Shown here: one piece after another, positions 4,320 through 9,312 of the stretch
How positions within the stretch are numbered: position 1 is the stretch's first letter
How the letters are laid out: the number at the start of each line of letters is the position of its first letter
NCBI RefSeq assembly: GCF_025998175.1
Contig: NZ_AP026695.1
Span: 1,366,760-1,430,759, forward strand
Reading direction: 5' to 3'
From: Nitrosopumilus zosterae
Lineage (GTDB): Archaea; Thermoproteota; Nitrososphaeria; Nitrososphaerales; Nitrosopumilaceae
DNA: 64,000 nucleotides
Notes under the pieces: model-generated
Seen by the model: only the letters and a program-made list of their open reading frames with translations
Database searches by the model: none
Told to the model about the DNA's origin: nothing
Made by a program: the position numbers and the translations under genes

Positions 4320-4847
4320 TTGACAAAAATTAACAATGTAGATCTTGACAAAGTTGCAAATACCATAACAATGGGAAAAGAAGACAAAAAAACGCTAAGA
4401 AAACCAGTCAAGATGCAAGGTGAGTGGAATTTAGACTCCAATTCAGAATTTCAATTCAAAACAGAACTGCCTTTTGAAAAGGGAAGTCAAGTAATTGAGA
4501 TTGATTCGCCATCATTTTTGGGTGGAGATGGTAACAGACTAGGCCCAATGGCGTATTGTATTGCAGGAATAACATCTTGTTTTGTAGGCACATTTGTAGG
4601 AATTGCAGCCAATCAAGGCATAAAATTAACAAAACTAAAAGTAAATACAGAATGCAACATCAATTTTGCAAAGACCTTTGATTTATCAGAAGAACCAATC
4701 ACCGAAGGAATTAATTTTAAAATAGATGCTCAAAGTGAAAATGCAGATAATCAAAAACTACAAGAAATACTGAATATGGCAGAAGAACGTTGTCCTGCCA
4801 TGTACAGCATGACTCATAAAATTAACATTGATGCAAAAATTGTGTAA
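4320..4847 (+). CDS. OsmC/Ohr-family protein
   Basis: A 175-residue protein of the OsmC fold, whose members reduce organic hydroperoxides with a reactive cysteine pair. Two family positions are visible: a cysteine in the helix AYCIAGITSCFVGTF (near residue 84) and a second in the late motif ERCPAMYSMTH (near residue 160). The start is TTG 4320; the ATGs just upstream at 4310 and 4313 are out of frame and stop at once. Proximity to the Fur/PerR regulator fits a redox-stress role, though substrate preference cannot be read from sequence. Confidence 0.85.
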   Translation: MTKINNVDLDKVANTITMGKEDKKTLRKPVKMQGEWNLDSNSEFQFKTELPFEKGSQVIEIDSPSFLGGDGNRLGPMAYCIAGITSCFVGTFVGIAANQGIKLTKLKVNTECNINFAKTFDLSEEPITEGINFKIDAQSENADNQKLQEILNMAEERCPAMYSMTHKINIDAKIV

Positions 4848-4925: not shown

Positions 4926-5351
4926 CTATTTCATTTTAGATTTACAATTATGACAATAACCATATAATTCAAAATTACTCTTCAAAATTAGATATTTTGA
5001 TTTTTTTGCGGCCTTTGCTTGAATCTCTTTTAGAGAGTCTTCATCAACATCATCAATTTTACCGCATTTCATGCAGACCAGATTGATATGTTCATCAATA
5101 TGAGCATCAAACCGTGCTCCTCCTTCTACCTCAATTTCGTTTACAAGTTTTTTTTCGCGGAGCAGATCTAGTGTTTTGTCGACTGTAGACAGGCTTACCA
5201 TGGGGTATCTCTTTCTAACAACCTTGTGAATCAATTCAGCGCTGGGATGATCTTCAGTTTTAAGCAGATAATCCACTATCGCTATTCTCTGAGGCGTAAT
5301 CCTAAACCCTTCATCCCTCAATGATGAGACTATTTCCTCTAGATGTTGCAT
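4926..5351 (-). CDS. Fur/PerR-family metal-dependent repressor
   Basis: A 141-residue protein. Residues 1-75 are the winged helix DNA-binding domain (GFRITPQRIAIVDYLL and a recognition helix near VSLSTVDKTLDLL). Residues 78-141 are the dimerisation/metal domain with DAHIDEHINLVCMKCGK and a terminal CHNC. C93/C96 and C133/C136 should form the structural zinc site; D82, H84, D86 and H88 are candidate regulatory metal ligands. Iron-sensing Fur and peroxide-sensing PerR cannot be told apart with certainty. It is divergent from three small zinc-protein genes, and the shared 99-base gap holds two near-perfect palindromes, so it probably regulates both itself and that cluster. Confidence 0.9.
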   Translation of the reverse strand: MQHLEEIVSSLRDEGFRITPQRIAIVDYLLKTEDHPSAELIHKVVRKRYPMVSLSTVDKTLDLLREKKLVNEIEVEGGARFDAHIDEHINLVCMKCGKIDDVDEDSLKEIQAKAAKKSKYLILKSNFELYGYCHNCKSKMK

Positions 5352-5391
5352 GATACTGTACCACTGCGATCCTATTTAATATTTATTTGTT

Positions 5392-5410
5392 ATTAAGAAT
5401 AATTCCTAAT
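5392..5410. promoter_or_regulatory. Fur/PerR-box-like operator 1
   Basis: ATTAAGAATAATTCCTAAT is a 19-bp imperfect palindrome matching the general shape of Fur/PerR boxes. It lies 41 bases upstream of the Fur-type gene start and repeats the second site with one difference. Confidence 0.7.
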
Positions 5411-5425
5411 AGATAATAACACTTA

Positions 5426-5444
5426 ATTAGGAATAATTCCTAAT
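5426..5444. promoter_or_regulatory. Fur/PerR-box-like operator 2
   Basis: ATTAGGAATAATTCCTAAT is a 19-bp palindrome, perfect except at the central base, and ends 6 bases before the ATG of the first small zinc gene at 5451. It would overlap the expected transcription start of that gene. Spacing to operator 1 is 34 bp between equivalent positions, about three helical turns. Confidence 0.75.
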
Positions 5445-5450
5445 AACAGT

Positions 5451-5615
5451 ATGCTAATTCAAGATTTACAATTTGGTTCAAATAAGAAAACGGTAAATGA
5501 AGCAATCAAAATTTGTGTTAATTGTGGAAACATTGCTGTAAATATCCAAAATCACAGAATATTCTGTAAGAACTGTGGTTCATTTTTTAAGGTGGAGAAA
5601 AAGCATGATGAGTGA
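5451..5615 (+). CDS. Small zinc-ribbon protein, 54 residues (first of three)
   Basis: ATG 5451 opens a 54-residue frame with two knuckles, CVNCG at about residues 24-28 and CKNCG at about 41-45, which together form a four-cysteine zinc ribbon. The ATG follows operator 2 by six bases. Its stop TGA 5613-5615 overlaps the start of the next gene. I do not recognise a named family. The position opposite a Fur-type regulator suggests metal or peroxide control. Confidence 0.65.
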   Translation: MLIQDLQFGSNKKTVNEAIKICVNCGNIAVNIQNHRIFCKNCGSFFKVEKKHDE

Positions 5616-5778
5616 GCATTCCTGTAGAAGTGTATGTGGGTATTATGATGCCGATGCAAAATTTAGAAATTCAGTGAATAACACATTTAGGAAATATTGT
5701 GCAGTTTGCAATTTAGAATTAATTTCAAGATATTCTGTTTGCCCCTGTTGTCACAAATATTTTGAGGGTGTAAAATAA
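5608..5778 (+). CDS. Small cysteine-rich protein, 56 residues (second of three)
   Basis: The frame is open from GTG 5575, but ATG 5608 (or 5605) is the likely start because it overlaps the preceding stop by 8 bases, as expected for coupled translation. The 56 residues hold CRSVC, CAVC and CPCC, i.e. seven cysteines in all plus two histidines, a pattern suited to one or two zinc sites. The last cysteines resemble the CPCC of the next gene. Function unknown. Confidence 0.6.
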   Translation: MSEHSCRSVCGYYDADAKFRNSVNNTFRKYCAVCNLELISRYSVCPCCHKYFEGVK

Positions 5779-5960
5779 TGGGATATTCTTGTAAAGGCAT
5801 ATGTGAGGAGTTCAGGGGAGACAAAATTCCAAACGGTTCAAAATATGAATATGGGCAAAAAAGATGTACATTGTGTAGTATTTTTTTGAGTGTATCTGGG
5901 GTTAGATGTCCATGTTGTAGTGTTCTTTTGAGAACAAAACCCAGAGGCAAAAGATCATAA
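5778..5960 (+). CDS. Small zinc-finger protein of the YxxGQKRC family, 60 residues (third of three)
   Basis: A 60-residue protein whose ATG shares a base with the previous stop (TAATG). Its features are C-x3-C at residues 5-9, then YEYGQKRCTLC, then RCPCC and a basic LRTKPRGKRS tail. A 72-residue paralogue at 23000-23218 has the same framework (YEQGQKRCPEC, WCPCCG, LRTKPRARK), which supports both as real genes. The basic tail suggests nucleic-acid contact, but that is inference. Confidence 0.7.
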   Translation: MGYSCKGICEEFRGDKIPNGSKYEYGQKRCTLCSIFLSVSGVRCPCCSVLLRTKPRGKRS

Positions 5961-6283: not shown

Positions 6284-6574
6284 ATGAAATTTATCTTCGA
6301 TATAGTGAATTGGTTATCTGTGCATTCAGACATACGAGAAGAGATTAAGAATTTAGAAGATAACATTTTACGATTAGAAGACAACATTGCAGAGTTTTTG
6401 AGTATGAAATATGATGAGGGAGTCAAAAAATTACTTCACTCACTAGAATCAGATTTAAAATATCTGAGCATTCTTGCAAACGGGGCCCCAATTGACAAAA
6501 ACGAAGATAGAAAGATCATGGATTTTTTAAGAACACATTATGCACGTTTGCAAAAATTATCTGTTCCAGCATGA
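6284..6574 (+). CDS. Hypothetical coiled-coil protein, 96 residues
   Basis: A 96-residue, mainly helical protein. Residues 15-45 have heptad-like spacing (REEIKNLEDNILRLEDNIAEF) consistent with a short coiled coil. The rest is charged and soluble, with no cysteine motifs or signal peptide. I do not recognise a family. Codon use looks like that of neighbouring genes. Confidence 0.6.
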   Translation: MKFIFDIVNWLSVHSDIREEIKNLEDNILRLEDNIAEFLSMKYDEGVKKLLHSLESDLKYLSILANGAPIDKNEDRKIMDFLRTHYARLQKLSVPA

Positions 6575-8187: not shown

Positions 8188-9312
8188 TCATTTTTTACTT
8201 GCATTTTGAATTAGTGTTTTCCATTTGTCATTTCCCTTAACTTCAATACCACACATTTCTGATGGTGTTTTACCCTCAAGACTCATGTGAGGTCTTACGT
8301 AATTATGGTATAGTTGGTAACCGTCAATTAATGGAGAATCCATTTTCTTCAAACCTCTGGTTACTTTTTCCCTATCTCTAAATTCACCATTCAGTCTCTC
8401 CATAGTGTTATTGTTTTTATCTCCTGTAATGTGGATATGACGAATGTGGGTTGTTCTTTGACTTCTCTCCCTTGCCCAAAATTCCCTCTTGTATGCTTCT
8501 GAATATGAAGCCAGACCGTCAGTGATGAAGACTTTGGGAGTAATTTTGGTAACCTGTTTTGCCTGTTGTAACAAACCTCTTGCATTATGACCTTGTTTTC
8601 TATGTGAGACTTCTTGTGCAATCCAGAATTTAGTTTGGTCATCCATTAGTGAAAATACATATTTCAACTCTCCACGAATTTTCACATAGACTTCATCAGC
8701 ACGCCATGTATCCCCTACACTTGGAGTGATTTTATCCAAGTATGATTTCATTAGTTTGGTGTATTTTACAACCCAACCATAGATAGTCTTATGAGATACA
8801 TTTACTCCTTGAAGTTTTAGGAATTTCTGAACGTTTCTTAATGATTCGCCTGTGAAATAGAGTTGTAATGATTGGGTTATGATTTCAGGGCTCGATTTCA
8901 TCTTCTCAAAGCCTAAGTTAATTGAGAATGTCTTTTTACAATCCTTGCAGGCAAATCTCTGAATATCGCCAGACTTGTTGTGTCTGATTCCTGATTTCTT
9001 TAGGTTGTCACTATTGCAGAACTGACAGATTTGAATGTTGATTGGTTCTATGGTTACTTTGTTTTGTTCTCTTACCTGTTCTCGTAGTTTGATTGAGATT
9101 TCAACAGAGTGAATATGTTTACAGCAAAGTTTTCTAAAAATGTGATCAGGGCAGTTACAAACAAAGCCTGAATTTGTCTTGGTTACCGTATAGTTTACGT
9201 GTCTTGTTTGGGAACGAACAGAATAGGTTGATTCATCAATTCTTCTGATTTGATTTCCTTGTTCAGCAATCACTTTGCCCTTTTCTTGTCTTGGATTTGT
9301 TTGTGTTGTCAT
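8188..9312 (-). CDS. IS6-like DDE transposase with N-terminal SWIM and zinc-ribbon domains
   Basis: A 374-residue protein. A SWIM-type zinc finger lies near residues 52-66 (C52-x-C54 ... C64-x-H66). A zinc ribbon follows near 96-125 (CQFC ... CKDC), then a helix-turn-helix region (about 140-180). The catalytic DDE domain has WRADE (D206), FITD (D265) and NTMERLNGE (E305), with a basic residue about seven positions after the glutamate. The architecture matches archaeal IS6/IS240-type transposases, and the GGTTCTG ends with 8-bp duplication agree. It is intact and probably functional. Its ATG lies at the first of four operator-like repeats, so expression may be self-limited. Confidence 0.9.
   Translation of the reverse strand: MTTQTNPRQEKGKVIAEQGNQIRRIDESTYSVRSQTRHVNYTVTKTNSGFVCNCPDHIFRKLCCKHIHSVEISIKLREQVREQNKVTIEPINIQICQFCNSDNLKKSGIRHNKSGDIQRFACKDCKKTFSINLGFEKMKSSPEIITQSLQLYFTGESLRNVQKFLKLQGVNVSHKTIYGWVVKYTKLMKSYLDKITPSVGDTWRADEVYVKIRGELKYVFSLMDDQTKFWIAQEVSHRKQGHNARGLLQQAKQVTKITPKVFITDGLASYSEAYKREFWARERSQRTTHIRHIHITGDKNNNTMERLNGEFRDREKVTRGLKKMDSPLIDGYQLYHNYVRPHMSLEGKTPSEMCGIEVKGNDKWKTLIQNASKK

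Follow-up and report, generated by a model that had tools for sequence, protein, structure and literature searches.

The closest described systems are the bacterial PerR regulons, those of B. subtilis PerR and of S. suis PerR with dpr. In S. suis, PerR controls a Dps protein, and the PerR box is given as NTANAANNATTNTAN (PMC3458967); within the PerR protein, D104 confers sensitivity to H2O2 and N61 governs the choice of the box (PMC8638851). As for archaea, Sulfolobus solfataricus has a single Fur gene that, together with DpsL, is induced by H2O2, and the Fur regulon is stated to be unmapped (PMC2739297). The small zinc-finger micro-proteins of Haloferax (HVO_2753-like) have about 60 aa and paired cysteines, and several are linked to stress adaptation (cited in PMC8305020). 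A canonical catalase is missing from the cultured marine ammonia oxidisers (PMC6593220). In our literature searches, no paper turned up in which a peroxide regulon is described for these organisms; the same searches returned no description either of a unit made of a regulator, an operator and a zinc trio, so the zinc-microprotein output of the unit presented here appears to be undescribed in the searchable literature.

The window, that is, the whole stretch of 64,000 nucleotides that was analysed, corresponds to positions 1,366,760-1,430,759 of the 1.775-Mb genome (one contig) of Nitrosopumilus zosterae. The first-pass annotation had described a Fur/PerR regulator facing three tiny zinc-protein genes of 54, 56 and 60 residues, with frames overlapping by 8 bases (ORF1/ORF2) and 1 base (ORF2/ORF3), and two 19-bp palindromes differing by one base; this layout was confirmed, and its features are the following.

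4926..5351, minus strand: regulator gene, 141 aa, coding for a PerR-like protein of the FUR family (PF01475 match, match to PerR 2fe3, ligand alignment)
5372..5386, minus strand: AT-rich block about 25 bp before the regulator start, probably the TATA region from which the regulator itself is transcribed
5392..5410, no strand: operator site 1, 19-mer ATTAAGAATAATTCCTAAT, imperfect palindrome, in register in 28 of 30 loci
5410..5426, no strand: 17-bp spacer, possible weak middle site (consensus score above column permutations)
5423..5429, plus strand: TATA-like element TTAATTA, putatively of the zinc-gene promoter, proposed from its position about 25 bp before the ORF1 start
5426..5444, no strand: operator site 2, 19-mer ATTAGGAATAATTCCTAAT, perfect 9-1-9 palindrome, covering the presumed transcription start region
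5451..5615, plus strand: ORF1, 54 aa, predicted single zinc ribbon with two CxxC pairs (invariant Cys, dN/dS)
5608..5778, plus strand: ORF2, 56 aa, predicted zinc-finger protein, marker of the unit (invariant motif, 34 of 400 class genomes)
5778..5960, plus strand: ORF3, 60 aa, predicted zinc-finger protein with a basic tail, member of a multi-copy family (7 invariant Cys)

For ORF2, an alternative ATG one codon upstream is also possible. Around the unit, an OsmC-like gene (4320-4847, plus strand, PF02566) is convergent with the regulator; the idea of a peroxide island built on this neighbour was dropped, because, among the loci searched, just the window and its nearest relative showed the linkage. 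About 2 kb past the unit, an ORF of 374 aa (8188-9312, minus strand) resembles a transposase, with a SWIM-like zinc finger and a DDE-type domain.

Regarding the regulator, the FUR-family domain is present, with a PF01475 score of 99.9 bits against a cut-off of 23.1; its top match among solved structures is B. subtilis PerR (2fe3, E 4.7e-25), and its top NCBIfam model is that of clostridial PerR, with 136.8 bits, a value under the equivalog cut-off of 180. Residues H35, D82, H88 and D101 align with the PerR metal ligands, meaning that four of the five ligands of the PerR regulatory site (H37, D85, H91, H93 and D104) are kept; the fifth, H93, is replaced by Asn90, and Asn is likewise found at this position in the aligned PerR entry 4i7h. 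D101, the residue aligned with D104 of PerR, is Asp in the aligned relatives as well, and C93, C96, C133 and C136 align with the cysteines of the PerR structural zinc site, C96, C99, C136 and C139. The equivalent of N61 is Lys and not Asn, which fits a box with other outer bases such as the one found here. Judging from these matches and alignments the regulator is PerR-like, though it departs from a canonical PerR at the N61 position and in the box, and it scores under the model cut-off.

One residue of the regulator deserves a separate mention: position 58 is Asp in this genome and Tyr in 29 aligned relatives, with the codon at 5178-5180 (minus strand) reading GAC in the window and TAC in the nearest relative. 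In this family, residue 58 sits in the DNA-reading helix (general knowledge and PMC8638851). Asp58 may reflect an error in sequencing, altered specificity or damage to the repressor, and the passage from a conserved DNA-contact Tyr to Asp may have altered the control in this genome; the remaining regulator gene is under purifying selection (dN 0.018 and dS 0.21 against the nearest relative). One dN/dS pair, L031-L032, was disregarded, as misaligned starts made its value meaningless.

As for the operator, a single base distinguishes the two 19-mers, which stand above chance: the window has six operator-like sites with up to three mismatches, against 0.59 expected, and none of 100 shuffles had as many. 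When the entire genome (1.775 Mb) was scanned with the 17-mer, sites 1 and 2 were the only matches with 0-1 mismatches, and no operon besides the trio has a good operator in this genome. Two sites with two mismatches were considered for a wider regulon, and neither was a convincing target: the one at 863774 is inside a coding sequence, the one at 1734818 at an unrelated gene. In a scan of 24 genomes, exact sites were found at the regulator locus in seven regulator carriers, and the sole other exact match among those listed belongs to a genome in which the regulator was not detected.

The geometry of this region is regular. In the loci of 28 of the 30 regulator-carrying genomes, the centres of the palindromes are separated by 34 bp; in most loci, the end of site 2 is 7-8 bp from the first start codon, and the arrangement is similar with either ORF1 or dps as the first gene. 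Such a short distance leaves little room for a leader, so that the ORF1 transcript is probably leaderless and site 2 probably covers the initiation region. On the opposite side, TATTTAATATTTATT or TATTTATAGTTATT is found again in the aligned loci at the block 5372..5386. The spacer has a mean of 9.8 consensus matches out of 16; column permutations give 5.4, with 3 of 2000 reaching the observed mean. It may be a weak third site, or promoter sequence instead. The consensus of the boxes, TAGGAATNATTCCTA, keeps the AATNATT core of the Fur-family boxes, and its outer bases differ, so it does not match the canonical PerR box.

Evidence that the three frames are real genes comes from the median dN/dS, 0.18 for each of them across 25-26 homologues, from the third-position bias present in all three, and from their invariant cysteines. 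These are C22, C25, C39 and C42 in ORF1 (alignment A7), six Cys together with a CPCCH motif in ORF2 (alignment A6), and seven Cys in ORF3, which also has a conserved LR..R basic tail; the role of zinc-independent replacement, listed among the possibilities in the first-pass annotation, is contradicted by this invariance. ORF1 weakly resembles eL43 and ribosomal zinc ribbons, and by its sequence it is a zinc ribbon separate from the family of the other two. ORF2 is homologous to ORF3 (hhalign 96%), and both are assigned to a large archaeal zinc-finger family. For the ORF3 family, nine other strong matches lie in this genome; genomes throughout the taxonomic family carry several copies each, and the rest of the phylum gives weaker matches. 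Relatives of ORF3 occur also on 13 IMG/VR contigs (L163-L175), which are putatively viral; a PHROGs search gave no confident match, and Pfam no match for ORF3. When compared with PDB, the ORF3 profile had a weak match to a GATA finger, with E 0.007, below significance. The AlphaFold2 models of the effectors were of moderate quality (mean pLDDT 82 and 73), and Foldseek found no significant fold match for them, with RanBP-type and ribosomal zinc ribbons in its lists. On the basis of the basic tail, the GATA-like match and the Foldseek lists, the resemblances being all sub-significant, we lean towards ORF2 and ORF3 binding nucleic acid, RNA polymerase or the ribosome.

Conserved synteny, chosen beforehand as the point on which the reading of the locus could fail, is strongly present. 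Of 200 genomes of the family, 30 were found to have the regulator, with a patchy distribution; in nearly all these loci the zinc genes diverge from it across the same intergenic region. Among the exceptions are L053, on a truncated contig, and L054, which has dps and no full trio. True ORF2 proteins score >75 bits, clearly apart from the paralogues (<40 bits); with this distinction, a scan of 400 genomes of the class gave 34 with ORF2 and 35 with the regulator orthologue of the family; 33 genomes have both, as counted by hand from two tables. Among the ORF2 loci of named genomes, which are mostly Nitrosopumilus and Nitrosarchaeum MAGs, 23 of 24 have the adjacent regulator in the fetched DNA, the exception being on a 6.7-kb contig. 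Linkage of the flanking genes to the unit is confined to the window and its nearest relative, so the conserved unit consists of just the regulator, the operator and the operon.

Some loci depart from this arrangement. Genome G143 (L032, L200) keeps the regulator, the operator, ORF1 and ORF3, and it has a stop codon within ORF2, which may be dispensable there. G361 (L197 1192-2712, L162) has a row formed by dps, ORF1, a CtaA-like (heme A synthase) gene, an ORF3-like gene and ORF2; its 6.7-kb contig lacks the regulator, and dps is not preceded by a good operator. In G352 (L193, 1543-2470), a second regulator copy, which is broken and has no trio with it, lies beside a homologue of the window ORF 6284-6574, which suggests that the region was rearranged or is mobile. 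Finally, in some loci of the dps type ORF1 seems to be extended at its N-terminus; the extension runs over the end of dps and is probably spurious.

The genes facing the regulator in the relatives are informative about its signal. The first gene behind the operator is dps in some loci of the genera g9, g14 and g17, usually with zinc genes after it: the zinc genes of the unit in g14, ORF3-like and ORF2-like genes in the g17 locus L055. Farther away, in other families, three f3 genomes have dps opposite the orthologous regulator, and elsewhere its place is taken by a DpsL-like ferritin gene (one f6 genome) or by a peroxiredoxin gene; the functional names of these distant neighbours were read from their sequences. 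These neighbours make peroxide or iron control much likelier than zinc control, as far as gene content can tell. This adjacency belongs to the relatives and not to this genome, whose dps lies elsewhere and without the operator; dps was undetected in several members of the genus carrying the unit, so the trio can be the sole target. In the regulator tree, the dps-linked f3 rows fall outside the clade of the family (midpoint root, modest support within the family); the linkage to dps is thus plausibly ancestral; the zinc genes would have been added later, and g1, g4 and g18 would have lost dps from their units.

Taken together, the locus is best read, with somewhat better than even chances, as a compact one-operon unit of Nitrosopumilaceae, in which peroxide, through PerR-like control, would derepress zinc microproteins whose binding partner is nucleic acid, RNA polymerase or the ribosome. 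The regulation is deduced from the anatomy of the locus, and we regard the step from this anatomy to peroxide control as strong, the step to the effector function as weak. The metal-loaded PerR-like dimers would bind the two strong boxes, and perhaps the weak middle one too, keeping TBP, TFB and RNA polymerase from the probably leaderless start; H2O2 would then oxidise the metal site (H35/H88), with D101 giving the sensitivity, and the oxidised repressor would leave the DNA, allowing ORF1, ORF2 and ORF3 to be made. ORF2 and ORF3 would most likely be zinc-finger adaptors for nucleic acid, RNA polymerase or the ribosome, ORF1 would be their zinc-ribbon partner, and the trio would act in the peroxide response beside Dps or instead of it. 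A broader version, which we advance only tentatively, is that of an archaeal peroxide module whose zinc-finger microproteins act on nucleic acids or ribosomes, either protecting or reprogramming them, and which replaced Dps in several lineages of marine ammonia oxidisers, some of which have no detectable Dps.

The same PerR-like control might instead act on a thiol/zinc buffer or on rubredoxin-like electron carriers, taking up zinc or electrons under peroxide, as the seven Cys in the 60 aa of ORF3 (with an extra unpaired Cys in CPCC), the CxxCG-type knuckles of ORF1 and the co-regulation with dps in sister genera would allow; this is unlikely given the conserved basic tail of ORF3, the numerous paralogues at other places in the genome, where the operator is not seen, the lack of a peroxidase partner seen in the unit, and the appearance of rubrerythrin only among the non-significant Foldseek matches. 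Zinc storage and redox buffering are less favoured than binding to nucleic acids or ribosomes.

The other readings concern the signal. The regulator does belong to the FUR family, and in some bacteria the regulation of dps can depend on Fur-type proteins (PMC2739297), so that our regulator might be an iron-responsive Fur that represses when iron is plentiful, with the zinc proteins made in iron shortage; this is quite improbable, as the position of H2O2 sensitivity is Asp and not Glu, the closest relatives of the regulator are PerR proteins, and no iron-uptake gene with the operator was found in this genome. The cysteine-rich nature of ORF1, ORF2 and ORF3 would suit a Zur zinc sensor with a trio of zinc-related replacement or storage proteins. 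The known replacement proteins of Zur regulons are devoid of zinc ligands, whereas the trio keeps all of them; with the dps and peroxiredoxin neighbours, and with Zur models and structures ranking far below PerR in the PDB and NCBIfam comparison, this last reading has a very slim chance. Consequently, of the metal- or peroxide-controlled set of tiny zinc proteins proposed at the outset, the PerR-like, peroxide part stands in view of the PerR match, the Asp at the D104 position and the dps and peroxiredoxin neighbours, while control by zinc is disfavoured; that such a set is regulated we infer from conservation.

With respect to the bacterial PerR regulons, the preferred reading of a peroxide-derepressed unit shares the FUR-family regulator with the PerR-type Asp, four of the five metal ligands and the C4 zinc site, orthologues that divergently face dps, DpsL-like or peroxiredoxin genes, and a palindromic box with the AATNATT core at the promoter; it differs in the Lys recognition residue with the box TAGGAATNATTCCTA, in the twin boxes at fixed spacing, and in having three zinc microproteins as the only target in this genome. 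The S. solfataricus system similarly has an archaeal FUR-family gene and a DpsL, the kind of gene that faces the orthologous regulator in the f6 genome, whereas no zinc trio and no mapped operator are described for it (PMC2739297). The Haloferax micro-proteins are like ORF1-3 in their size of about 60 aa and paired cysteines (cited in PMC8305020). ORF3 recalls the GATA-type, RanBP and ribosomal zinc fingers through the non-significant resemblances reported above, and it has three Cys groups (CxxxC, CxxC, CPCC) and not two as these fingers do. To our knowledge, neither a PerR-like regulator nor a twin operator is known for the Haloferax micro-proteins.

In conclusion, the comparison of sequences indicates that this is a real, conserved regulatory unit, which would work like a small PerR regulon. 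With one operon, a defined operator and three tiny effectors, it would provide a direct entry point to the peroxide response of ammonia oxidisers, and it would offer the first conditional context for a large and unnamed family of archaeal zinc fingers.
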